Shown here piece after piece: positions 1,916 to 17,122 of a stretch of DNA of 47,578 nt (its first letter is position 1; every line of letters starts with the position of its first letter). This DNA comes from Dictyobacter arantiisoli (GTDB lineage Bacteria > Chloroflexota > Ktedonobacteria > Ktedonobacterales > Ktedonobacteraceae): the NCBI RefSeq assembly GCF_008326305.1, contig NZ_BIXY01000056.1, forward strand, positions 1 through 47,578, given 5' to 3'. A model generated the notes under the pieces. That model searched no databases and was not told the origin of the DNA. It saw nothing but the letters and a program-made list of their open reading frames with translations. The position numbers and the translations under genes were made by a program.

Positions 1916-2941
1916 ATGGCGACAAAAGTGGAAGATGTCCATATTATCTGGATTGTAGAGGGATTGGGATGTGAAGGGGATACGATCGCAGTTACTGCCG
2001 CGACCCAACCCAGCATCGAGGATGTTGTGTTGGGAGCCATTCCAGGGCTCCCCCGAGTTCATATCCACAATAAATGCATCGCTTATGAGTGGGGAAAAGA
2101 CTTTATGGATTGGTGGTATAAAGCGGAACGAGGCGAGCTCGATCCCTTTGTGCTTGTGTTTGAAGGCTCTGTGCCAAACGAGAAGATTAAATCCGAAGGC
2201 TACTGGGCAGCACTTGGCGTGGATGCTACTACCGGTCAGCCCATTCCTGTAAGTGATTGGATTGATCGTCTCGCCCCTAAAGCTTTGGCCGTAGTGGCAA
2301 TAGGAACCTGCGCCACCTATGGTGGCATCCATGCTATGCAAGGGAATCCGACCGGAGCCATGGGTGTCGCGGATTATCTCGGCTGGGACTGGAAATCCAG
2401 GGCTGGCATCCCCATTGTCAATGTTCCAGGCTGCCCCGTGCAACCTGATAACTTTATGGAAACCCTCCTCTATCTACTCTACCAGGTAGCTGGCATGGCC
2501 CCGATGATTCCTCTAGATGAGGAAGGGCGACCTACCTGGCTCTTCGGCAAAACAGTCCATGAAGGATGCGACCGCGGTAGCTACTATGAGCAGGGTATGT
2601 TCGCCTCCGAGTACGGCTCACCACAATGTCTGGTAAAACTGGGCTGCTGGGGGCCAGTAGTGAACTGCAATGTTCCTAAGCGCGGTTGGATGGCTGGCAT
2701 TGGTGGCTGCCCTAATGTGGGCGGCATCTGTATCGGCTGTACAATGCCAGGCTTCCCCGACAAATTTATGCCTTTTATGGATGAACCACCTGGCGCGAAA
2801 CTTTCGACGTCCGTTGTAAGCATCTGGGGTGGTGCCTTACGCGGCCTACGCAAAATAACAAATGATACGGTCAATAAGGAACCATCCTGGCGGCACAAAG
2901 GCAGGCAACTGACGACGGGCTACCCGCCTCCATGGCAATGA
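1916..2941 (+). CDS. hhyS: Group 1h [NiFe]-hydrogenase small subunit
   Basis: A 341-residue Fe-S subunit that would carry electrons from the NiFe site in HhyL. There is no twin-arginine signal, so a cytoplasmic-side enzyme is expected, as in other group 1h enzymes. The proximal-cluster region reads GLGCEGD: Cys19 is kept, but Asp22 sits where most [NiFe]-hydrogenases have the second Cys. Cys132 (GTCATYGG) and Cys173 (PGCPVQP) complete a 3Cys-1Asp ligand set, a hallmark known for the Ralstonia eutropha actinobacterial-type hydrogenase. The distal ligands look like His215, Cys218, Cys238 and Cys244. Cys251, Cys265, Cys272 and Cys275 could hold a medial [4Fe-4S] cluster (inference). The ribosome site AAGGAGGA fits the start; hhyL follows after 50 bp. 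Confidence 0.96.
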   Translation: MATKVEDVHIIWIVEGLGCEGDTIAVTAATQPSIEDVVLGAIPGLPRVHIHNKCIAYEWGKDFMDWWYKAERGELDPFVLVFEGSVPNEKIKSEGYWAALGVDATTGQPIPVSDWIDRLAPKALAVVAIGTCATYGGIHAMQGNPTGAMGVADYLGWDWKSRAGIPIVNVPGCPVQPDNFMETLLYLLYQVAGMAPMIPLDEEGRPTWLFGKTVHEGCDRGSYYEQGMFASEYGSPQCLVKLGCWGPVVNCNVPKRGWMAGIGGCPNVGGICIGCTMPGFPDKFMPFMDEPPGAKLSTSVVSIWGGALRGLRKITNDTVNKEPSWRHKGRQLTTGYPPPWQ

Positions 2942-2991: not shown

Positions 2992-4788
2992 ATGTCTACG
3001 CAAGCGAAACGGGAAGGGTCTCCTCAGCAGCCACCACAGCTTGTAGAGATGTCGTGGGATCCCATGACACGTATTGTGGGTAGTCTGGGTATCTATACCA
3101 AGATCGACTTCAAGAACCGGCGGATAGCAGAAGCGTATAGCACTTCTCACATCTTCCGTGGCTATAGCCTCTTTATGCAGGGCAAGGATCCGCGTGATGC
3201 CCACTTCATCACGAGTCGCATCTGCGGCATCTGCGGTGATAACCATGCCACTTGCTCCGTCTATACGCAGAACATGGCCTATGGGGTCAAGCCACCAGCC
3301 CTGGGTGAGTGGATCATCAATCTGGGTGAGGCAGCGGAGTACATGTTCGACCACAATATCTTCCAGGAGAATCTGGTCGGCGTCGATTTCTGTGAGCAGA
3401 TGGTCAAAGAGACAAATCCCCATGTGCTTGAGCTCGCCAATAAAACTGCTGCCCCACATGCAGCAGAACATGGTTATAAAACCATTGGGGACATTATGCG
3501 CTCGCTTAATCCCTTCACCGGCGAGTTCTACCGCGAAGCATTACATGTGAGCCGCTATACGCGTGAGGCATTCTGCTTGATGGAAGGACGCCATGTTCAT
3601 CCCTCGACCCTTTATCCAGGCGGAACAGGCACTACCGCAACCATTCAAATCTTCACGGACTACCTCGTTCGACTGATGAAGTACGTTGAATGGATGAAGA
3701 AGGTCGTGCCTATGCATGATGACCTGTTCGACTTCTGGTACGAGGCTCTACCGGGCTATGAAATGGTGGGTCAACGGCGGATACTCCTCGGTTGCTGGGG
3801 TTCCTGGCAAAATCCTGACGTATGCGACTACGATTATCGCACGATGGACAAGTGGGGACGGGCCATGTATGTCACGCCTGGTGTGATTGTGGATGGAGAG
3901 TTGGTGACGACCAGTCTGGTGGATATTAACCTCGGTATTCGTATTCTATTGGGTAGTTCCTATTATGAAGATTGGCAGAATGAAAGAACGTTTGTTGACC
4001 GCGACCCGCTTGGTAATCCTATCGATAAGCGCCATCCCTGGAATCAAACAACCATCCCTAAGCCGCAAAAACGCGACTTCAGCGACAAATATAGCTGGAC
4101 GATGTCGCCGCGCTGGTATGATAAGCGTGCCGGTGATTATCTGGCCCTGGATACTGGCGGAGGTCCCATTGCCCGCCTGTGGTCAACAGCACTGGCCGGA
4201 CTGGTGAATATGGGAGGACTGATCGAAGCAACCGGACACAGTGTCAAAATTCGTCTGCCCAAGAGTGTCAGCAAACCCGAAGTAGAATTCGAGTGGAAGA
4301 TCCCAAAGTGGAGCAACGCAATCGAGCGTAACCGGGCACGCACATACTTCCAGGCTTACTCTGCCGCTGCTGCTCTCCACTTTATCGATAAAGCGCTTGC
4401 CGAACTCCATGCCGGTCACACCAAAACATGGAGCGATTTTACGGTACCAAAGGAGGCTATCGGCTGCGGCTTCCATGAGGCTGTCCGTGGCGTACTTTCC
4501 CATCACATGGTGATTGAGAATGGTAAGATCGCCAACTACCATCCCTATCCGCCAACACCCTGGAACGGCAGCGTGCGCGATATCTATGGTACTCCCGGCC
4601 CCTACGAGGACGCAGTACAGAACACCCCAATCTTTGAAGAAAATGGCCCGGAAGCCTTCAAAGGGATAGATATCATGCGAGCGGTTCGCAGCTTCGACCC
4701 TTGTTTACCATGTGGCGTCCATATGTACCTGGGCGAAGGCAAAGAACTTCAAACAGTTCTTTCACCAACCTTTGGCATCAACTCGTAG
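2992..4788 (+). CDS. hhyL: Group 1h [NiFe]-hydrogenase large (catalytic) subunit
   Basis: A 598-residue catalytic subunit that splits H2 at a NiFe(CN)2CO centre. The two metal-binding motifs are intact: N-terminal RICGICGDNH (Cys78, Cys81, His85) and C-terminal DPCLPCGVH (Cys571, Cys574, His577). The 21 residues after His577 form the peptide that the maturation protease removes once nickel is inserted; the matching protease gene is at 8610. Length and motif spacing fit the family. The ribosome site GAAGGAG stands 11 bases before the ATG. With HhyS it forms the heterodimer expected of a high-affinity, oxygen-tolerant group 1h enzyme; affinity is inferred from the family. Confidence 0.96.
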   Translation: MSTQAKREGSPQQPPQLVEMSWDPMTRIVGSLGIYTKIDFKNRRIAEAYSTSHIFRGYSLFMQGKDPRDAHFITSRICGICGDNHATCSVYTQNMAYGVKPPALGEWIINLGEAAEYMFDHNIFQENLVGVDFCEQMVKETNPHVLELANKTAAPHAAEHGYKTIGDIMRSLNPFTGEFYREALHVSRYTREAFCLMEGRHVHPSTLYPGGTGTTATIQIFTDYLVRLMKYVEWMKKVVPMHDDLFDFWYEALPGYEMVGQRRILLGCWGSWQNPDVCDYDYRTMDKWGRAMYVTPGVIVDGELVTTSLVDINLGIRILLGSSYYEDWQNERTFVDRDPLGNPIDKRHPWNQTTIPKPQKRDFSDKYSWTMSPRWYDKRAGDYLALDTGGGPIARLWSTALAGLVNMGGLIEATGHSVKIRLPKSVSKPEVEFEWKIPKWSNAIERNRARTYFQAYSAAAALHFIDKALAELHAGHTKTWSDFTVPKEAIGCGFHEAVRGVLSHHMVIENGKIANYHPYPPTPWNGSVRDIYGTPGPYEDAVQNTPIFEENGPEAFKGIDIMRAVRSFDPCLPCGVHMYLGEGKELQTVLSPTFGINS

Positions 4789-6533: not shown

Positions 6534-7183
6534 TGCCAGACCTGAGCTTTGAGGTATTGGGTGCCGAAGCTGTGCCCTACAGTACGCTTCCAATGCTCAA
6601 CTTCAAACTGCGGATTGGCAACGCAAACCCGGAAGAGCTGATCCAAAATATCAATTTGAAGTGCCAGATTATGCTCTCAGTGACACAAAGACGTTATGCA
6701 CCCGAAGAAAAGGCCAAACTGTTTGAGCTTTTTGGTGAGCCTGAACGCTGGGGTAAAACTTTGCGTACGTTCCTGTGGACGCACGTGCCTACCGTGGTGC
6801 CACGCTTCTCAGGCAATACCACCGTCGATCTGCCTGTTCCATGTCTCTACGATTTTGAGGTAGTGAGTACCAGATACTTCAATGCACTGGAGGATGGTGA
6901 CGTACCGCTCACCTTCCTCTTCAGTGGCACTGTTTTCTACGCAGGCGCGGAAGATAATCTACAGATCAGTCAGATCTCCTGGTCCAAGGAAGCCACCTAT
7001 CGCCTCCCGGTTGCCGTTTGGAAAGAGGTAATCCACACACACTTTCCCAACACAGCCTGGATTCGCCTGCCAAAGGATGTTTTCGACGAATTGTATCAGT
7101 ATAAAATCGCGCATGGCCTCATCACCTGGGAGCAAGTTCTTACACGCCTGCTACAGGCAAGTGGAGAGGAAGTAAAGCCATGA
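6533..7183 (+). CDS. DUF6084 family protein
   Basis: A 216-residue protein with the opening MPDLSFEVLGAEAVPYSTLP and a later RFSGNTTVDLPVPCLYDFEV, which I recognise as DUF6084. Members sit beside DUF5947 in group 1h hydrogenase clusters. It appears soluble, beta-rich in the first two thirds, and lacks Cys motifs or a signal peptide. Its start overlaps the previous stop by one base, with GAGAGGAGG just upstream, and its own stop overlaps the next gene (ATGA), so expression is translationally coupled on both sides. Function unknown; a structural or assembly role for the hydrogenase is the reasonable inference. Confidence 0.85.
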   Translation: MPDLSFEVLGAEAVPYSTLPMLNFKLRIGNANPEELIQNINLKCQIMLSVTQRRYAPEEKAKLFELFGEPERWGKTLRTFLWTHVPTVVPRFSGNTTVDLPVPCLYDFEVVSTRYFNALEDGDVPLTFLFSGTVFYAGAEDNLQISQISWSKEATYRLPVAVWKEVIHTHFPNTAWIRLPKDVFDELYQYKIAHGLITWEQVLTRLLQASGEEVKP

Positions 7184-8223
7184 AGCTAGAGCAGGTAAAG
7201 GAAATCGCCAACGCGATCCTCTACGAGGGCTATCTCCTCTATCCATACCGCCAGTCCGCAATCAAAAATCGTACACGTTGGACGTTTGGCGGCATCTATC
7301 CACGCGAGTATAGCGAGGGGAATGGTGGCAGAGATCCCTGGACAATGCGCACAGAATGCCTGCTAGAAGGTCAGGCAGAGCATCTCTCACTCGATATAAC
7401 CATCAGGTTTCTGCACCTGCTTGTGCGTACAGTTGTGCCACCCGATGCGAGAAAAGATGAGCAAGTGGAAGAGCTTTCCGATACATGGGGACTGGCTAGC
7501 CGTTTTGCGGACGAACCATTACAGGAGGGGCGAGAGCGCGATTTGAGCATACTGGATCTTTCCTTGAAAGATGTGCTGTTTTCTCCTCGCTGTGTGGCAA
7601 TTGAATTTCCCGCCACATGTACCGTAGAATATCCACCCGATGCGCATGGAATAGAGATCATTCGAGAGCAACAAGCACTCTCTGGAGTCTGTACACTCTC
7701 AGCTGAACGCGTCGCTACGACCATCTTCAAGCTGAGTATCACCATCGAGAATACGACATCTGTGACCGGTGATGCCACAAACCGCCACGATGCCATACTA
7801 TTCCAATCTTTCATCTCTACACATACTATTCTACAGGTACATCGGGGTTCTTTCATCTCACTGTTAGAGCCTTTAAAAGAGCTACAACCGTTGGTCAGCG
7901 AATGTCATAATCTCCACACATGGCCGGTGCTGGTCGGTGAGCAGGGGGAACGAGATACACTGCTATCGTCACCCATTATCTTGTACGACTATCCACAGAT
8001 CGCTCCCGAAAGTCCGGGACCGCTCTTCGATGGCGGCGAGATTGATGAAATTCTCTCGTTGCGTATTCTGACACTGAGTGATGAGGAGAAAAAGCAAATG
8101 CGACAGGATGAACACACCCGCGAGATACTGGAGCGCACAGAGGCCCTCACGCCTGATCAATTCATGAAGATGCATGGTACCATTCGTGATCTACGTCCTA
8201 ACAGCAAAGGAGAAAAAGCATGA
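7180..8223 (+). CDS. Conserved hydrogenase-cluster protein of unknown function (347 aa)
   Basis: 347 residues, soluble, no signal or membrane segment. The N-terminus MKLEQVKEIANAILYEGYLL and the nearby PYRQSAIKNRTRWTFGG resemble proteins encoded in actinobacterial group 1h hydrogenase loci; I know of no assigned function. The C-terminal 60 residues are charged and helical (EEKKQMRQDEHTREILERTE). It begins by ATGA overlap with the DUF6084 gene. Its last 20 codons and stop are the first copy of a 61-bp tandem duplication (8163-8284), whose second copy now forms the spacer and ribosome site of the next gene. Confidence 0.82.
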   Translation: MKLEQVKEIANAILYEGYLLYPYRQSAIKNRTRWTFGGIYPREYSEGNGGRDPWTMRTECLLEGQAEHLSLDITIRFLHLLVRTVVPPDARKDEQVEELSDTWGLASRFADEPLQEGRERDLSILDLSLKDVLFSPRCVAIEFPATCTVEYPPDAHGIEIIREQQALSGVCTLSAERVATTIFKLSITIENTTSVTGDATNRHDAILFQSFISTHTILQVHRGSFISLLEPLKELQPLVSECHNLHTWPVLVGEQGERDTLLSSPIILYDYPQIAPESPGPLFDGGEIDEILSLRILTLSDEEKKQMRQDEHTREILERTEALTPDQFMKMHGTIRDLRPNSKGEKA

Positions 8224-8284
8224 CATGAAGATGCATGGTACCATTCGTGATCTACGTCCTGACAGCAAAGGAGAAAAAGCATGA
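8163..8284 (+). repeat. 61-bp tandem duplication at a gene junction
   Basis: Bases 8163-8223 and 8224-8284 are identical except for one A/G difference (8200 versus 8261). Each unit ends in AAAGGAGAAAAAGCATGA. In unit 1 the TGA is the stop of the 347-residue gene; in unit 2 the ATG is the start of the next gene. One unit alone would give an ATGA stop/start overlap, so the duplication has pulled two formerly overlapping genes 57 bp apart while keeping both intact. Confidence 0.97.
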
Positions 8285-8613
8285 TACGTCGTGGAGGTTG
8301 GGATTTCCCAGGATTTCCAGGCGAGGATTATCCACCGCCAGCATCTATCACAATTGCAGGCAAAGAGGTGAGCGTGGGAACGCGTGTACGCCTCTGTCCA
8401 CAAAAGAGACGTGCCGACGCTTTTGATGGCATCCTTGCTGGAAAAATCGGGACTGTTGAGGTCATTCATCAGGATTTCGAGAATCGTGTCTATCTGGTTG
8501 TCACAGTGGACGATGACCCAGCCCTGGAACAAATGCAGATGCAGAGTCGTGTTATGCCTGGTCATCTTTTTTTCTTCTTTCCAGAGGAGGTAGAACTGCT
8601 GGAGGGCTCGTGA
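8281..8613 (+). CDS. Small conserved hydrogenase-cluster protein (110 aa)
   Basis: 110 residues with a Pro-rich N-terminus (WDFPGFPGEDYPPP), then VGTRVRLCPQKRRADAFDGI, GKIGTVEVIHQDFENRVYL and VVTVDDDP, ending in FFFFPEEVELL. The central part reads like a small SH3-type beta barrel. I recall a similar segment in actinobacterial group 1h clusters, sometimes within a longer protein. No function is established. The ribosome site AAAGGAG comes from the second copy of the 61-bp duplication, and the stop overlaps the GTG of the protease gene (GTGA). A role in handling the large subunit before cleavage is only a guess. Confidence 0.75.
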   Translation: MIRRGGWDFPGFPGEDYPPPASITIAGKEVSVGTRVRLCPQKRRADAFDGILAGKIGTVEVIHQDFENRVYLVVTVDDDPALEQMQMQSRVMPGHLFFFFPEEVELLEGS

Positions 8614-9275: not shown

Positions 9276-9307
9276 CACACTGGATAGTGAAGAGAACGAG
9301 GTCACGT

Positions 9308-9673
9308 ATGCATGAACTCTCGATTGCTCAAAGTATCGTTGAGACCGTAGAGGCACGGGCGAACGAATATCAAGCCACGAAGGTGAAGAGTGTACATCTG
9401 CGTATTGGCGAGGCCAATTGCATCGTCACAGACTCTCTGACCTTCTGCTTTGAGATGCTTACCAGCCTTGAACCATTGTTATCCGGTGCACAACTACTGA
9501 TTGACACGGTGCCACATCGAGCGAAGTGCGACCGCTGTGACAGCGAATTTCCAGTTCAGAACTTTATCGCTCAGTGCCCCACCTGTGACGAGTGGAGCCA
9601 CCATATCGTTTCCGGCACAGAACTCCAAATCCTTGAAATGGAAATCGACACTGGAATATGTGTCGCAACCTGA
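9308..9673 (+). CDS. hypA: HypA, nickel-insertion metallochaperone
   Basis: A 121-residue nickel carrier that works with HypB to load nickel into the hydrogenase large subunit. The start is set by the family's invariant MHELSI with the nickel-binding His2; an in-frame start 21 bases upstream would bury it. The structural zinc site is complete: CDRC (Cys74, Cys77) and CPTC (Cys90, Cys93). It is followed after 43 bp by hypB, its normal partner. Confidence 0.95.
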   Translation: MHELSIAQSIVETVEARANEYQATKVKSVHLRIGEANCIVTDSLTFCFEMLTSLEPLLSGAQLLIDTVPHRAKCDRCDSEFPVQNFIAQCPTCDEWSHHIVSGTELQILEMEIDTGICVAT

Positions 9674-9716
9674 GTTAAAGAGAAACATAGATGGATGCCC
9701 TATCCTGGAGGCAACT

Positions 9717-10367
9717 ATGCCCAAAGTCACTATTGCGCAAAACATTTTAGCGGCCAACGATACGATTGCCGAGGATATTCAGCAGATGTTGAGGGCACAT
9801 AATGTACGTACACTCAATATCATGAGTTCTCCGGGAGCCGGTAAAACGACACTTCTGGAGCGAACGCTCCTACGGCTGCGTGGAGGCATTGCCGTTGGTG
9901 TAATCGAAGGCGATATCGAAACCACGGCCGATGCGGAACGCATTGAGGCGGCAGGCGCGGAGGCAGTACAGATCAATACGCGAGGGGCATGTCATCTGGA
10001 AGCTCATATGATCCGTGATGCACTAACGCAAATGGATACGTCGCGTATGCGTCTGCTCTTCATTGAAAACATTGGTAATCTGGTCTGTCCTTCGTCCTGG
10101 AATCTGGGCGAGGATCTACGAATCGTACTTACCAGCACGACCGAAGGCGACGACAAGCCAGCCAAGTATCCACAGATGTTCGCCGCCTCACAGGTCATGA
10201 TCATTAATAAGCTCGACTTACTACCCTATGTGGATTACGATCTGGCGAAAGTAAAACGGCAGGCATTGGCTATCAATCCACATTTACGCATCTTCGAGCT
10301 AAGTTGTCGCAGCGGTGAAGGGCTTGATATATGGTGTGATTGGCTGCTCGCATTCGTCCAGCAGTAA
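9717..10367 (+). CDS. hypB: HypB, GTPase for nickel insertion
   Basis: A 216-residue GTPase of the SIMIBI class. The P-loop SSPGAGKTT (about 38-45), GACHLEAHM with the metal-binding Cys-His pair, IENIGNLVCPSSWNLGEDL and the base-recognition NKLDLLPY are all present. The His-rich nickel-storage N-terminus of some HypB proteins is absent. The ATG at 9717 with GGAGG before it is chosen; the longer open frame upstream merely overlaps hypA in another phase. Confidence 0.95.
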   Translation: MPKVTIAQNILAANDTIAEDIQQMLRAHNVRTLNIMSSPGAGKTTLLERTLLRLRGGIAVGVIEGDIETTADAERIEAAGAEAVQINTRGACHLEAHMIRDALTQMDTSRMRLLFIENIGNLVCPSSWNLGEDLRIVLTSTTEGDDKPAKYPQMFAASQVMIINKLDLLPYVDYDLAKVKRQALAINPHLRIFELSCRSGEGLDIWCDWLLAFVQQ

Positions 10368-10411
10368 ATGTAGCCGTGACCAGCGTTAGTCGCCTGGAAA
10401 GAAGCATTTCT

Positions 10412-12781
10412 ATGGATTCCGTTACAGATCCGGTACTTCAACGGCAGAGGATTCTTATTCAAGGCATTGTCCAGGGGGTAGGCTTTCGGCCATTCATCTA
10501 TGGTCAGGCTCTCCACTATGGCCTGGTTGGTTTTGTGTTCAACGATAGTCAGGGCGTCACCATCGAGGTAGAAGGTTCGCTCCTGGCACTCGCTAGCTTT
10601 CAGCGCGCCTTGCGTGAAGAGCTTCCCCCTCTGGCCCGCATTGATTCCATTGCTACCGAGTCGGTACAACCATGTCACGAGACTACCTTCGTTATCGCCC
10701 ATAGTCAGGCCAGCAATCAGCGATACGCACTCATCTCACCCGATACAGCCACCTGTGACGATTGCCTGCGTGAACTCTTCGATCCCGCCGACCGGCGTTA
10801 TGGCTATCCCTTTATCAACTGTACCAATTGTGGTCCGCGCTTTACCATTGTACAGGATGTTCCCTATGATCGCGACAAGACCACCATGCGCACCTTCCCA
10901 ATGTGCCCTACCTGTCTGGTAGAGTATGAAGATTCACTCAACCGACGTTTTCACGCTCAACCCAACGCTTGCCCGCTATGTGGACCACAGGTGTCCTTTT
11001 ATGACGGCGGCACAACCATAAGTACGACCACGACAAATGATCTGATTATGAGGATAGTGCAACAACTGGCTGCTGGCGCTATACTGGCTATCAAAGGATT
11101 GGGTGGTTACCATCTGGCATGCGATGCTCTCAATACAGAGGCAGTGCAACAGCTACGACAGCGTAAACATCGTGAAGCAAAACCGTTCGCACTTATGGTG
11201 CCTGACCTCAACACCGCCCGCCAGCTTTGTGTCGTAAGCGCTGCCGAGGCAACACTCTTACAATCCCATCGCCGCCCTATTGTATTACTACGCCAGCTTC
11301 CCAACTGCCCGGTAGCATCTGGCGTTTCGCCTGCATATAACACACTGGGCATCATGTTGCCTTATACGCCCCTCCACCATCTCTTGTTACGCGCTTTTAC
11401 CACCGCACTTGCTCCTGGTAGTCTGGCTGTGCTCGTCATGACCAGTGGCAACCTGAGCGACGAACCCATTGCATACCAGGACGATGATGCTCGTACAAGG
11501 CTGGCCCCCATCGTCGATGGTATGCTCACCTCCAACCGCGACATTTATATGCGTTGCGACGATTCTGTCATGCATATCAGCGCGGGAAATGTTCAATTTC
11601 TACGCCGTTCACGAGGTTACGCGCCCGAACCCATTCCACTCTCTTTCGATCTTCCGCTCCCACTTTTAGCTTGCGGTGGGCATCTCAAAAATACCTTCTG
11701 CCTGGGTAAGGGACGGCGCGCCTTCGTAAGCCATCATATTGGTGATTTAGAGAACCTTGAAACACTCACCTCTTTTAAAGAAGGCATCAAACATTTCCAG
11801 AACCTTTTTGATATTGATCCACAGGCCATTGTCTATGATCTTCATCCAGAATATCTCGCCACAAAATATGCCCTGGATAGCGCTATCCCACAGAAAATCG
11901 GTATCCAGCATCATCATGCCCACATTGCCAGTGTCCTGGCAGAGCATGGATTGCAAGAGCCAGTCATTGGTGTAGCGGCCGATGGCACTGGCTATGGCAC
12001 AGATGGAGCTGTCTGGGGCTGCGAAATCATGACTGCCAATCTGCTGGGTTTTGAACGCCTGGCTTACCTGACATACATACCACTGATCGGCGGCGAACAA
12101 GCCATACGGCAGCCCTGGCGCATGGCCGCGGCTTACCTGGCTCACGTCTACGGCAGTGCTTTTCTGGAAGTAGCGATTCCTTTTACACAACAACTGGATC
12201 GCGCAAAGTGGCACATACTGGCGCAGATGATGAGCAGCCATCTCAATAGTCCCCCAACCTCCAGTCTGGGTCGATTATTCGATGCCGTGGCTGCACTGCT
12301 GGGTCTGCCTCAAGGGCTGGCGCAATCAAATGTACTATACGAAGGGCAAGCCGCTGTCGAACTGGAGATGCAGGCAACCTATGCTACCGATGCGATGCAA
12401 GAAGAAACAGAGCTCTATCCATTTCTTATGGATCGTATTGAAGGCCAGATGACAACGGTATTGAATGTGGCACCCCTTATTCGTGCCATTGTAAACGATA
12501 TCCAACAAGGCAGAACAGTTCCAAAGATTGCTTATCGTTTCCATTGCACCATTGCTGAATTGTTGGCACAAGCCTGTCATGAGATCCGCAAACAGACGGG
12601 ATTAAGCAGCGTTGCCCTTAGTGGCGGCGTTTTTCAGAACCGGCTGCTCCTTGAACAGTTGATCACCCGCCTGGAAGCATTCTCCTTTCAGGTCTATACC
12701 AATCGACGTGTACCACCCAATGATGGTGGCCTCAGTCTCGGTCAGCTAGCAATAGCTGCGGCACAGTTACGTGCCATATAA
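10412..12781 (+). CDS. hypF: HypF, carbamoyltransferase for cyanide-ligand synthesis
   Basis: A 789-residue enzyme that activates carbamoyl phosphate with ATP and passes the carbamoyl group to the C-terminal Cys of HypE, the first step to the iron-bound cyanides. Domains in order: acylphosphatase (GIVQGVGFRPFIYG), two zinc-finger repeats (CDDC, CTNC, CPTC, CPLC), a YrdC-like domain (KGLGGYHLACDA), and a Kae1-like domain with metal-binding HHHAH, GVAADGTGYGTDGAVWGCE and ALSGGVFQNRLLL. The length is normal. The ATG at 10412 lies 44 bp after hypB with GGAAAGAAG upstream; a TTG further upstream would overlap hypB. Confidence 0.95.
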   Translation: MDSVTDPVLQRQRILIQGIVQGVGFRPFIYGQALHYGLVGFVFNDSQGVTIEVEGSLLALASFQRALREELPPLARIDSIATESVQPCHETTFVIAHSQASNQRYALISPDTATCDDCLRELFDPADRRYGYPFINCTNCGPRFTIVQDVPYDRDKTTMRTFPMCPTCLVEYEDSLNRRFHAQPNACPLCGPQVSFYDGGTTISTTTTNDLIMRIVQQLAAGAILAIKGLGGYHLACDALNTEAVQQLRQRKHREAKPFALMVPDLNTARQLCVVSAAEATLLQSHRRPIVLLRQLPNCPVASGVSPAYNTLGIMLPYTPLHHLLLRAFTTALAPGSLAVLVMTSGNLSDEPIAYQDDDARTRLAPIVDGMLTSNRDIYMRCDDSVMHISAGNVQFLRRSRGYAPEPIPLSFDLPLPLLACGGHLKNTFCLGKGRRAFVSHHIGDLENLETLTSFKEGIKHFQNLFDIDPQAIVYDLHPEYLATKYALDSAIPQKIGIQHHHAHIASVLAEHGLQEPVIGVAADGTGYGTDGAVWGCEIMTANLLGFERLAYLTYIPLIGGEQAIRQPWRMAAAYLAHVYGSAFLEVAIPFTQQLDRAKWHILAQMMSSHLNSPPTSSLGRLFDAVAALLGLPQGLAQSNVLYEGQAAVELEMQATYATDAMQEETELYPFLMDRIEGQMTTVLNVAPLIRAIVNDIQQGRTVPKIAYRFHCTIAELLAQACHEIRKQTGLSSVALSGGVFQNRLLLEQLITRLEAFSFQVYTNRRVPPNDGGLSLGQLAIAAAQLRAI

Positions 12782-12793
12782 AGGAGTAAGAAT

Positions 12794-13066
12794 ATGTGTC
12801 TGGGTATTCCAGGTCAGATCTTAGAGATTGTCGATGACCCCAATTCTATTGCAAAAGTGGTCGTCTCGGGCGTCAAACGTCACATCAGTATCGCGCTCGT
12901 GCGTCCAGAGGGTATCGCACCAGGAGACTGGGTCTTGATTCACGTCGGTTTCGCCATGAGCAAAATCAACGAGAATGAGGCCCACGAAACGATGAAAGCT
13001 TTGTATACCATGGGCAACATCTTTTCTGATGAACTTCAAATGCTTCAAGAAAGCCAGATTGAATGA
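12794..13066 (+). CDS. hypC: HypC, hydrogenase assembly chaperone
   Basis: A 90-residue chaperone that, with HypD, holds the Fe(CN)2CO unit and delivers it to the large subunit. It has the required MCLGIPGQ start (Cys2 is the iron ligand) and GDWVLIHVGFAMSKI, the normal OB-barrel end. AAGGAG stands before the ATG, 12 bp after hypF. Its last codons overlap a tiny open frame at 13063. Confidence 0.95.
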   Translation: MCLGIPGQILEIVDDPNSIAKVVVSGVKRHISIALVRPEGIAPGDWVLIHVGFAMSKINENEAHETMKALYTMGNIFSDELQMLQESQIE

Positions 13067-13182: not shown

Positions 13183-13806
13183 ATGACAACTGAAATGGAA
13201 AAGCGCGAACAATCTGACTTGCTAGCAGTAGTCACCGCGCGCTTTGCGCTGAGCGTGACGATACCAGACACATTTTTCAACGCGGAGGCCAAAAATATCG
13301 CCGAGGCATGCTGGGCTATGGCACGGCGCTTTCACCAGGGCGGACGGCTCCTGGCCTTCGGCAATGGAGCATGGGCCACCGATGCCCAGCATGTGGCGGT
13401 CGAATTTGTACATCCAGTAATTGTTGGCAAACGCGCGCTACCCGCCCTGGCTCTAACGAACGATAGTGCAACGATGAGCGGTTTGATGACTGGTGATGAT
13501 GCCACGAACTCCTTCGCCCGTCAACTGCGGATAGTAGCTCGACCGCAAGATATCGCACTGGGCTATTCGCCGGATGGACAGTGCAACAACGTGCGCTCAG
13601 CCCTGACTACAGCGCGAGAAATGGGCTTGCTCACATTGGGACTGGTCGGAGGAGATGGAGGAAGCATACAACAGAGCCAGCTTGATTTCTGTTTCGTCGT
13701 CCCATCTTGCGATCCGTTGGCGATACAGGAAACGCACGAGACCCTCTATCATGTTCTCTGGGAACTGGTACATATCTACTTTGAGAATGAAGGGCTACTC
13801 CAATGA
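13183..13806 (+). CDS. SIS-domain protein 1 (GmhA-like, altered sugar-phosphate site)
   Basis: A 207-residue sugar-isomerase (SIS) domain protein of the GmhA/phosphoheptose isomerase type. The fold is recognisable from LLAFGNGAWATDAQHVAVEF (59-67 core), ALPALALTND and IQETHETLYHVLWE. However, the usual phosphate-binding FGNGGSSTD is FGNGAWATD here, and the second loop, normally ISTSGNS, reads GYSPDGQCN. Both loops that grip the sugar phosphate have therefore changed. It sits inside the hyp operon and overlaps the HypC-like gene by ATGA. It may pair with SIS protein 2 as a non-catalytic or differently specific partner; this is inference. Confidence 0.85.
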   Translation: MTTEMEKREQSDLLAVVTARFALSVTIPDTFFNAEAKNIAEACWAMARRFHQGGRLLAFGNGAWATDAQHVAVEFVHPVIVGKRALPALALTNDSATMSGLMTGDDATNSFARQLRIVARPQDIALGYSPDGQCNNVRSALTTAREMGLLTLGLVGGDGGSIQQSQLDFCFVVPSCDPLAIQETHETLYHVLWELVHIYFENEGLLQ

Positions 13807-14093
13807 ACGATGCTGAACAAAAGGACATACTTGCTCTTTTCCCGGCTCATCCGGGCATTCCATGCTGTGTTCCCACGGCAGATGGACAATGTATAACGTG
13901 TTCCGATGAGGCACTATCAGCTACCGTGTTGCGTGTCGATCAGGAAAACGGGGTGGCTCTGGTCTCCGTGCGAGAAATAGCGGAAGAGATTGACATTACC
14001 CTGGTGGACGCACTTGTACCAGGCGACCAGATCCTGGTACATGGTGGTGTTGCGATAGCTCTATTAATTGATTCAGAGGCCAGCCATGAATAA
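13803..14093 (+). CDS. Divergent HypC/HupF-like protein
   Basis: 96 residues. The second half (TVLRVDQENGVALVSVREIA ... GDQILVHGGVAIALL) is a HypC-type OB barrel, but the protein does not begin Met-Cys, so it lacks the N-terminal iron ligand of HypC. It carries a Cys-rich segment of its own: PCCVP and CITCSDEA (Cys21, Cys22, Cys30, Cys33). Similar CITCSDEA-bearing HypC relatives occur in actinobacterial hydrogenase loci as I recall. It overlaps SIS protein 1 (ATGA) and SIS protein 2. A scaffold or metal-handling role in Fe(CN)2CO assembly fits but is unproven. Confidence 0.82.
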   Translation: MNDAEQKDILALFPAHPGIPCCVPTADGQCITCSDEALSATVLRVDQENGVALVSVREIAEEIDITLVDALVPGDQILVHGGVAIALLIDSEASHE

Positions 14094-14769
14094 TAACGAA
14101 GGATCGGAGTACGATCGACTTTTTTATCCATTTCTCTTTGAAGGTGGCAAAGCCAGCCTGGAGGATGTATTGGCGCAGGTACAACACTCCACGCTCGAGA
14201 AGTGCCGCGAGATCATAGCCTTACGCCAGGCAACACTTGAGCACGCCGACGCCGGTATACAGATTGTAGCCGCCGGTCAGGCTATGGCACGCGCTTTCGC
14301 TCATGGAGCAACGCTACTGGCCTTCGGCAATGGTGGCAGTAGTACCGATGCACAGGATCTGGTGACGGAACTCTTGAACCCACCATTCGCACACTGGTCA
14401 CCCCTTCCAGCCCTGGCGTTGACTAACGATATCGCGGTGATTACAGCGGTAGGAAACGATGTTGGCTTCGACAACGTTTTTTCCCGCCAGGTCATCGCCT
14501 TTGGGCACAAAGGTGACATCGCCGTAGGCATCTCAACCAGCGGCAATTCAAAGAATTTGCTGGTTGCCCTTGAACAGGCCCATAAACAGGGGCTCCTCAC
14601 CATTGGACTGACTGGCTACGATGGTGGCAAGATGCTGCAATCAGGCAACATCGACATATGTATTAACGCACCCAGCGATCACATTCCACGCATCCAGGAA
14701 GCCCAGGCGACCGTCTATCATGCCCTCCTGGAGGTTATTCATACAGCATTAGAAAAAGGAATCTCATAG
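14086..14769 (+). CDS. SIS-domain protein 2 (GmhA-like, conserved site)
   Basis: A 227-residue SIS protein related to D-sedoheptulose-7-phosphate isomerase. The sugar-phosphate loops are canonical: FGNGGSSTD (80-88) and ISTSGNSKN (149-157), with RIQEAQATVYHALLEVIH at the end. No other gene of heptose synthesis is nearby, and the protein is embedded between a HypC-like gene and hypD, so a lipopolysaccharide role is unlikely. The ATG at 14086 overlaps the previous gene and has AGAGG upstream. Its substrate in hydrogenase maturation, if any, is unknown. Confidence 0.87.
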   Translation: MNNNEGSEYDRLFYPFLFEGGKASLEDVLAQVQHSTLEKCREIIALRQATLEHADAGIQIVAAGQAMARAFAHGATLLAFGNGGSSTDAQDLVTELLNPPFAHWSPLPALALTNDIAVITAVGNDVGFDNVFSRQVIAFGHKGDIAVGISTSGNSKNLLVALEQAHKQGLLTIGLTGYDGGKMLQSGNIDICINAPSDHIPRIQEAQATVYHALLEVIHTALEKGIS

Positions 14770-14832: not shown

Positions 14833-15978
14833 ATGAGTATGAAATTTGTGGACGAATATCGTGATCCCGAACTGGCGAAGCATGTCTCGGCAGAAATCGC
14901 CAGATTAAGTGGCGATCAACCACTTAAATTTATGGAGGTCTGTGGTGGACATACTCACACCATTTACAAACACGGCATTGAGGATGTGCTACCACCCAAC
15001 ATCGATCTGATCCATGGGCCAGGATGTCCCGTCTGCGTTCTCCCAATGGGCCGCATCGACGATGCCATTGCCATCGCTCGTAAAGAGGGCATCATCTTTA
15101 CCACCTTTGGGGATATGATGCGTGTGCCAGGCTCTCATGGAAGCCTGCTTGATGCCAAAGCGAATGGTGCTGATGTCCGTTTCGTTTATTCTCCACTCGA
15201 TGCCTACAAGCTGGCTCGCCAGAATCCTGATCGTCAGGTGGTTTTCTTCGCCATCGGATTTGAGACGACCGCCCCCTCAACAGCTGTGACGCTCCTGCGA
15301 GCAAAAGCCGAAGGCATCAAAAATTTCTCGATCTTTTGCAATCACGTCACCATCATTCCCGCAATGAAAGCTATCCTCGACTCGCCAGACCTGCGCTTAG
15401 ATGGCTTCATCGGCGCGGGACATGTTAGCATGGTCATTGGTATGCGCCCTTACAATTTTGTAGCTCGCGACCATCAGAAACCAGTCGTCATTGCAGGTTT
15501 TGAACCACTTGACATCATTCAGTCTATCTATATGCTCGTCAAACAACTTAACGAGGGACGAACAGAGATCGAGAATCAGTATGCGCGAGTGGTGCGACCA
15601 GAGGGCAATGTGAAGGCGTTACAGGCCATGGCTCAGACGATGGAACTGCGCCCCTTCTTTGAATGGCGTGGCCTCGGCTTTATTACGCACAGCGCCCTGA
15701 AACTACGCTCGGATTTCGCGGATTGGGATGCCGAGTTGCGCTTTGAAGTGCCGGGATTGCGCGTAGCCGATCCCAAAGCCTGCCAATGCGGTGAAGTTTT
15801 GAAGGGTGTTATTAAACCCTGGGAATGCAAGGTCTTTGGCACTGCCTGCACACCAGAGACACCTATTGGGACCTGTATGGTTTCGCCAGAAGGAGCCTGC
15901 GCCGCCTACTATAGTTACGGCCGATTCTCGATGGCCTCCGAGCGCAACCGTCTGCACGTTTTGCCCATCACCCAATAA
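14833..15978 (+). CDS. hypD: HypD, Fe-S protein of Fe(CN)2CO assembly
   Basis: A 381-residue scaffold that, with HypC, carries the iron while cyanide and CO are attached. Signature segments: FMEVCGGHTHTIYKHG (thiol redox and iron site), HGPGCPVCVLP, GDMMRVPGS, AIGFETTAPSTA and GAGHVSMVIG. The C-terminal [4Fe-4S] region has CQCGEV, WECKVFGTAC and GTCMV. The length is normal. AAGAAGGAG precedes the ATG, 63 bp after SIS protein 2. Confidence 0.96.
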   Translation: MSMKFVDEYRDPELAKHVSAEIARLSGDQPLKFMEVCGGHTHTIYKHGIEDVLPPNIDLIHGPGCPVCVLPMGRIDDAIAIARKEGIIFTTFGDMMRVPGSHGSLLDAKANGADVRFVYSPLDAYKLARQNPDRQVVFFAIGFETTAPSTAVTLLRAKAEGIKNFSIFCNHVTIIPAMKAILDSPDLRLDGFIGAGHVSMVIGMRPYNFVARDHQKPVVIAGFEPLDIIQSIYMLVKQLNEGRTEIENQYARVVRPEGNVKALQAMAQTMELRPFFEWRGLGFITHSALKLRSDFADWDAELRFEVPGLRVADPKACQCGEVLKGVIKPWECKVFGTACTPETPIGTCMVSPEGACAAYYSYGRFSMASERNRLHVLPITQ

Positions 15979-16003: not shown

Positions 16004-17122
16004 ATGGATGCGGATACATCAAATGCCGGACGTGTTGACTCAGTATTACAGAAGATCGAGCGCACGCGTCAGGCGCGTCGCCACAAATTCTACTTACATG
16101 ATGAGAAAATTACGCTCAGTCATGGCAGTGGTGGCAAATCCACTCACAATCTAATTGAGGGGGTCTTTGCTCCAGCCTTCTCAAATCCCTTGCTGGATGC
16201 CATGGATGATGCCGCAACATTTCGTGTGGATGGTACAGATGATATAGACCATCGGCTAGCCTTTACAACCGACACTTATGTCGTTAGCCCATTATTCTTT
16301 CCAGGAGGAGATATTGGTAAGCTCGCGGTGCACGGCACTATCAACGACCTTGCTATGGCTGGCGCCACACCCTTATACCTCTCAGTCGGCTTTATCCTGG
16401 AGGAAGGTTTCCCCATCGTTGATCTGCGCCGTATTGTTGCATCGATGGCACAGGCAGCAAAGGAGGCAGGTGTCGCCATCGTTACGGGCGATACAAAGGT
16501 GGTACAGCATGGGAAGGCCGATGGTGTCTTTATCAACACAGCGGGTATTGGTCTGGTTCGTGCCTCCTGGTTAATGGGACAGGCTCAATTGGAGCCAGGA
16601 GATAAAGTCTTGTTGAGCGGCCCTGTTGGCGATCACGGTATCGCAATTATGTTTGCTCGTGAAGCACTTGATATCGAAAGCGACGTACAAAGCGACACGG
16701 CCCCGCTACACACCCTGGTGGCCTCCCTTATTGAGGCCGCTGGTGAGGGTATACACTGTCTGAAAGATCCTACACGTGGAGGTGTTGCCACTTCCCTCAA
16801 TGAGATGGCACTGGGATCGGAGGTTTCGGTTGCCCTTGATGAACAAAGCATCCCTGTCCATCCCGAAGTACGAGGGGCCTGCGAAATCCTCGGGCTCGAT
16901 CCTCTCACGATTGCCAACGAGGGCAAATTGTTAGCAATCGTCGCGCCCGGCGTAGCCGATACTACACTGCAAGCAATGCACAATCACCCACTGGGCCGTG
17001 ATGCTGCGATTATTGGCACCATCCAGGCCGAACCGCCGGGCATGGTCTTTTTGCGCACTGATATCGGCGGTCTGCGTGTTCTGGATATGCTGGTAGGTGA
17101 TCCTTTGCCACGTATTTGCTAA
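16004..17122 (+). CDS. hypE: HypE, carbamoyl dehydratase making the cyanide ligand
   Basis: A 372-residue PurM/ThiL-fold enzyme. It receives the carbamoyl group from HypF on its last residue and dehydrates it with ATP to a thiocyanate. Seen: LSHGSGGKSTHNLI, AMDDAATF, TDTYVVSPLFFPGGDIGKLA, KDPTRGGVATSLNEMA and the C-terminal PRIC, whose Cys372 is the carrier residue. The ATG at 16004 follows AGAGGGA, 25 bp after hypD. This closes the 15-kb hydrogenase block. Confidence 0.96.
   Translation: MDADTSNAGRVDSVLQKIERTRQARRHKFYLHDEKITLSHGSGGKSTHNLIEGVFAPAFSNPLLDAMDDAATFRVDGTDDIDHRLAFTTDTYVVSPLFFPGGDIGKLAVHGTINDLAMAGATPLYLSVGFILEEGFPIVDLRRIVASMAQAAKEAGVAIVTGDTKVVQHGKADGVFINTAGIGLVRASWLMGQAQLEPGDKVLLSGPVGDHGIAIMFAREALDIESDVQSDTAPLHTLVASLIEAAGEGIHCLKDPTRGGVATSLNEMALGSEVSVALDEQSIPVHPEVRGACEILGLDPLTIANEGKLLAIVAPGVADTTLQAMHNHPLGRDAAIIGTIQAEPPGMVFLRTDIGGLRVLDMLVGDPLPRIC

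Follow-up and report, generated by a model that had tools for sequence, protein, structure and literature searches.

Two GmhA-class SIS proteins, encoded between hypC and hypD in a hydrogenase maturation operon of Dictyobacter arantiisoli, show complementary losses: each has lost the opposite half of one GmhA active site. Our best explanation, to which we give a probability of about one half on sequence comparison, is that the two proteins (SIS1 and SIS2) form a heteromer with a composite active site and a role in [NiFe]-hydrogenase maturation, plausibly in connection with the CO ligand. SIS1 and SIS2 would be duplicates of a single GmhA-like gene, probably already present in the hyp operon before the duplication, and would now form an obligate heteromer. 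The His, Glu and His of the metal/catalytic half would come from SIS1, and the phosphate pocket with a Gln from SIS2, each SIS1-SIS2 pair having one full GmhA-type active site and one dead one. The HypC-like protein encoded between them, HypC2, would belong to the same complex and dock the SIS pair on the HypC/HypD scaffold. The SIS enzyme would act on a phosphorylated carbonyl compound during assembly of Fe(CN)2CO in oxygen-exposed hydrogenases (group 1h and its relatives). Most plausibly it would provide or modify the CO-ligand precursor, the job done by HypX wherever the same hydrogenase is matured by a hyp set of the HypX type.

The SIS1-HypC2-SIS2 cassette and its distribution

The window, the whole stretch of 47,578 nucleotides analysed here, is a single contig from a genome of 7.2 Mb; the hydrogenase-subunit, hyp and cassette genes described below lie on its + strand. 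It encodes the small subunit (1916..2941; Pfam Oxidored_q6 and NiFe_hyd_SSU_C) and the large subunit (2992..4788; Pfam NiFeSe_Hases) of a group 1h [NiFe]-hydrogenase. The group 1h label follows from comparison with the C. necator AH enzyme, against which the large subunit scores 1152 bits (phmmer) and with which it shares a clade in a tree. The group 1h enzyme oxidises atmospheric hydrogen and works in air. The large subunit is the client of the maturation operon. A Pfam search at E 0.01 gave no match for the hydrogenase-operon proteins at 7180-8223 and 8281-8613.

The maturation operon starts with hypA (9287..9673 from the first listed start; TIGR00100, 99 bits, above the cut-off), hypB (9501..10367 as listed, the true start being probably more internal; TIGR00073, 260 bits) and hypF (10340..12781 as listed, with the match from residue 38; TIGR00143, 792 bits). 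A normal hypC with the N-terminal sequence MCLGIPG follows (12794..13066; TIGR00074, 84 bits). Then come SIS1 (13183..13806, 207 aa; Pfam SIS_2, 50 bits), HypC2 (13803..14093, 96 aa) and SIS2 (14086..14769, 227 aa; Pfam SIS_2, 72 bits), the two SIS assignments being based also on residues and clade. SIS1 overlaps HypC2 by 4 bases and HypC2 overlaps SIS2 by 8 bases; for SIS2 the start is at about 14086, and an alternative TTG start at 14068 likewise lies in the open frame. Downstream are hypD (14833..15978; TIGR00075, 525 bits), which falls in a clade with SIS-associated HypDs, and hypE (16019..17122, in a frame open from 15806 and with homology from about 16106; TIGR02124, 450 bits). Reading frames, overlaps and Pfam scores all bear out the cassette between hypC and hypD that a sequence-only reading had described.

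HypC2 scores 36.1 bits against the Pfam HupF_HypC gathering threshold of 28.5, and 32.9 against the TIGR00074 cut-off of 48. In the alignment, the N-terminal Met-Cys motif is absent from 19 of 19 HypC2 rows, and the window protein has three Cys (C22, C30, C33), D35 and the barrel His (H80). HypC2 can occur apart from SIS: it also lies between hypC and a hypD of the SIS type at three loci (L065, L076 and L077, in G286, G068 and G076), where no SIS genes were seen and no HypX match was obtained. One of these genomes, G286, is a member of the window's family and has another hydrogenase with HypC2; SIS and HypX were not found in it.

Relatives of the cassette were found at hyp operons in Chloroflexota, Actinobacteriota, Thermus, Sulfobacillus and Proteobacteria. 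Since the same genes recur at hyp operons across these phyla, the cassette is not a chance arrangement. The window SIS2 and its counterpart in Ktedonobacteria bacterium brp13 share 88% identity. Among 80 hypD-positive Chloroflexota genomes all 21 strong SIS1 matches lie within about 2.5 kb of hypD. For Actinobacteriota 22 of 25 strong matches are on a contig with hyp or hydrogenase genes, and no such shared contig was seen for the other three, which are in draft genomes. Genomes with hydrogenases 40-45% identical to group 1h can have SIS as well, and SIS-bearing loci with NHL-repeat and NifU-family genes are presumably of group 2a. Of 385 alphaproteobacterial genomes surveyed for group 1h, the centre genome alone gave a match (42% identity), too little to be informative; when viral contigs were scanned, no SIS1 relative turned up. 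A linear 28.5 kb plasmid, the F plasmid of Sphingopyxis alaskensis (L124), combines hypA-F with hydrogenase accessory genes and one SIS gene; its annotated genes, as far as shown, do not include hypX.

The cassette genes occur in several arrangements: as three separate genes; as SIS1 and SIS2 genes that are separate and without a detected HypC2 in between (L019, L097); as SIS1-SIS2 fusions of about 400 aa, several of these loci having HypC2 adjoining hypC; as SIS1-HypC2 fusions adjoining SIS2 (L023, L095, L098); and as one SIS1-HypC2-SIS2 frame of 478 aa (G036, L073). A single SIS with no HypC2 detected is found in proteobacterial plasmid loci and in G038 and G073. Because separate, pairwise-fused and triple-fused forms occur, SIS1, HypC2 and SIS2 are probably parts of one complex. 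In one subgroup a small Uxx-star/glutaredoxin-like protein is encoded near the SIS1-SIS2 fusion (L025:9575-9832; likewise L066, L100 and L112).

The complex might also have a structural task, as a chaperone by which Fe(CN)2CO is protected or stored during assembly in air, with a role like that of HoxL/HoxV (HupF/HupK) and with the SIS fold as a binding platform, as in DiaA. HypC2 resembles an Fe-carrying chaperone and keeps the barrel His and three Cys, HypC2-SIS fusions exist, and ancillary proteins proposed to shield assembly from oxygen are known (PMC12134894). However, the positions of E65 and H180 are taken by Ser and Asn, respectively, in E. coli DiaA, while SIS1 and SIS2 jointly keep the whole set of residues, and HypC2 is found without SIS as well. 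We consider such a purely structural role improbable.

Complementary active-site losses in SIS1 and SIS2

In a tree made by a quick method and containing some long branches, SIS1 and SIS2 each occupy one side of a branch (value 97), and the hyp-linked SIS proteins stand apart from GmhA/DiaA (value 96). Both proteins score below the GmhA equivalog cut-offs of 276 and 209.45 (SIS2, 157.5 and 144.3; SIS1, 101.4 and 97.1) and below the DiaA cut-off of 352 (SIS2, 106.3; SIS1, 57.6). The best database matches of both are nevertheless GmhA, as one would expect of ordinary heptose-pathway genes that entered the operon by chance. These scores, the separate clade, the hyp linkage across phyla and the finding that neither protein alone has the full site make that origin highly improbable. 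The genome also has a GmhA-like gene of its own beside GmhB-like and heptose-kinase-like genes (contig C11, L003), and on the same contig another SIS protein is encoded beside an HddA-like kinase (L005). The earlier statement that no heptose pathway is present thus holds for the window and fails for the genome, where C11 has a heptose-type locus. We rejected a heptose role for SIS1 and SIS2 because of their clade, their scores below the cut-offs and the GmhA-like locus elsewhere in the genome.

Residues were counted in a single alignment of SIS1, SIS2 and nine single SIS proteins, using E. coli GmhA numbering. SIS1 rows retain H61 (46/46), E65 (46/46) and H180 (43/43), and rarely have S55 (1/43), T120 (3/41), S121 (3/42) or S124 (5/43). 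Among SIS2 rows N52, S55, S119, S121 and S124 are each present in 46/46 and Q172 in 45/45, while H61 is found in 0/46 and E65 in 8/46. The asymmetry is weak at two positions, Q172 being kept in 35/43 SIS1 and H180 in 41/45 SIS2. In the window, SIS1 keeps the metal ligands H70, E74 and H190 and the Gln and has lost the phosphate-binding Ser/Thr; SIS2 keeps all phosphate-binding residues and the Gln and has Asp for a zinc-ligand His. The nine hyp-linked single SIS proteins have the full GmhA site in one chain, apart from S124 in one of them. L126, at first grouped with the single SIS proteins, clusters with GmhA and lies outside these counts.

The sequence-only reading had seen one canonical and one degenerate protein. 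The phosphate loops of SIS1 are indeed both lost, as it quoted them, but SIS1 retains its metal ligands and SIS2, with its Asp, is not fully canonical, and the losses of the pair are complementary. In published GmhA structures H61, E65 and H183 of a monomer bind the zinc together with a Gln from its neighbour (PMC5387315), and every active site takes residues from three chains (PMC11056994); in a model of M. tuberculosis GmhA one monomer contributes the phosphate loops and Gln, a different one the Glu (PMC7705670). Because GmhA sites span chains, SIS1 and SIS2 together could restore one complete active site, the reciprocal site being dead. We think it probable that the pair has such a composite site and that it binds or converts a phosphorylated ligand. 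The earlier idea of a SIS heteromer gains strong support from the architectures, including the fusions, from the parallel clades and from the complementary active-site loss, and we think it very probable that SIS1 and SIS2 make up a dedicated hyp-linked heteromer.

An AlphaFold model of a natural SIS1-SIS2 fusion (L013) had a pLDDT of 88.7 and a pTM of 0.90. Both of its halves align with the tandem-SIS isomerase domain of GlmS (Z 28) and with glucokinase regulatory protein (Z 27). The second match fits an alternative in which the SIS pair, as a pseudoenzyme, would bind some phosphorylated metabolite, such as a sugar phosphate, and, via HypC2, tune maturation to the carbon or energy state, like the tandem-SIS glucokinase regulatory protein. 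A sensor of this kind would be compatible with the fully kept phosphate pocket of SIS2, the dead reciprocal half-site and the fusion to a HypC-like protein. It would have no need of the metal-site His, Glu and His, yet these are invariant in SIS1; the single SIS proteins keep the entire GmhA site, and near-exclusion with HypX is not predicted by it. We regard a sensor or gate as unlikely.

SIS, HypX and the CO ligand in group 1h genomes

HypX is the known aerobic CO-making enzyme of hydrogenase maturation and uses formyl-THF and CoA. The cassette proteins have no formyl transferase or enoyl-CoA hydratase-like domain by Pfam. We searched for HypX with the C. necator protein (L030:13681-15474) and, in 60 genomes, with a second, actinobacterial query; the window genome gave no match with the two queries. 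Among the 80 hypD-positive Chloroflexota genomes, the window's own included, SIS1 was strong in 21 and HypX was found in one (G204), which stands outside the tally as its hypD contig ends beside hypD. HypX in G204 (C127, L063:580-3243) is fused in one 888-aa frame to a FolD-like THF dehydrogenase/cyclohydrolase, a fusion that could couple formyl-THF supply to CO synthesis.

A group 1h large subunit (above 1000 bits) was present in 17 of 72 Chloroflexota genomes tested, and 16 of the 17 have SIS1, the seventeenth being G204. The Actinobacteriota sample comprised 80 hypD-positive genomes, mostly of at least 2.3 Mb and excluding those known from the SIS scan. Nineteen of them had a 1h large subunit: 13 with SIS only, three with HypX only, one with both and two with neither. 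For both phyla together the 35 testable 1h genomes divide into 29 with SIS only, three with HypX only, one with both and two with neither (Fisher p 0.006, relatedness ignored). HypX was likewise missing from all 15 genomes of the SIS2 scan. The sequence-only reading had asked whether the cassette is absent from most group 1h loci without hypX; it is present in 29 of 31 testable HypX-less 1h genomes. Most sampled hypD-positive genomes have neither SIS nor HypX.

In the Actinobacteriota sample the five 1h genomes that lack SIS all have HypDs of one separate clade (value 99 in the tree). In five pairs that set a non-SIS against a SIS-type hyp set, the large subunits are 77-89% identical and the HypDs 49-52%. 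On the hydrogenase tree the five genomes sit at three places, and the SIS/HypX label changes more than once. This scatter over the actinobacterial tree suggests repeated exchange of the hyp set.

The suggestion that the cassette provides a CO precursor where HypX is lacking is consistent with the 29 of 31 genomes, but it does not cover every case. SIS and HypX were not found in two group 1h genomes with the other HypD clade (G494, L083; G353, L084), both occur together in C. necator pHG1, a B. guangxiense plasmid and G399, and G286 has HypC2 without either. Since genomes with neither or both exist, a strict swap of SIS for HypX is argued against. To our knowledge no chemistry gives CO from such an isomerase. 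A part for the SIS module in making or shaping the CO precursor is a reasonable proposal, weakened by the genomes with neither or both. That the pair supplies the CO ligand specifically is possible but rather doubtful. More tentative still is the idea that SIS1-HypC2-SIS2 might be a second way, independent of HypX, in which the CO ligand or its immediate precursor is made aerobically, through a composite-site heteromeric metal isomerase of the GmhA type. Anaerobic hydrogenases receive CO that is made without HypX (reviewed in PMC12134894).

Relation to known systems

A table entry for M. smegmatis places MSMEG_2706, annotated as the phosphoheptose isomerase gmhA, near hydrogenase genes (PMC5445863), and judged from gene order this protein probably belongs to the same SIS family. 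A table of a hydrogenase neighbourhood survey has an entry for a SIS_2 cluster that recurs near hydrogenase genes (PMC12727194). Our search of the literature, mostly of open-access papers, found no paper discussing a role of SIS in maturation. This result, and the location of nearly every strong SIS1 match in the sampled phyla at a hyp or hydrogenase locus, agree with the earlier view of the cassette as an undescribed maturation component. A dedicated heteromeric maturation module appears well supported by these comparisons. Most sampled group 1h hydrogenases occur without HypX, for which a conserved hyp-linked SIS module offers a concrete candidate, and the SIS pair is a good candidate for the missing assembly step. 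Heterologous expression of such hydrogenases could be affected. The pair also illustrates clearly how complementary loss can split a single active site between two paralogues.

GmhA, the D-sedoheptulose 7-phosphate isomerase of the SIS_2 family, shares with the cassette its fold, the phosphate loops (in SIS2) and the zinc ligands (in SIS1). The cassette differs in dividing the halves of the site between two paralogues, in being hyp-linked and in scoring below the equivalog cut-offs. The GlmS isomerase domain and glucokinase regulatory protein carry two SIS domains per chain, like the modelled SIS1-SIS2 fusion, with about 10% identity and with different families, partners and ligands. HypC2 has the HypC core and His of the HypC/HybG/HupF chaperones, but it lacks the N-terminal Met-Cys, has an extra three-Cys motif and falls below the TIGR00074 cut-off. 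HypX resembles the cassette as an accessory maturation gene of oxygen-exposed [NiFe]-hydrogenases, and the two have a near-complementary distribution in the sampled 1h genomes. In contrast to the formyl transferase and enoyl-CoA hydratase-like domains of HypX, the SIS site suggests a phosphorylated carbonyl compound.
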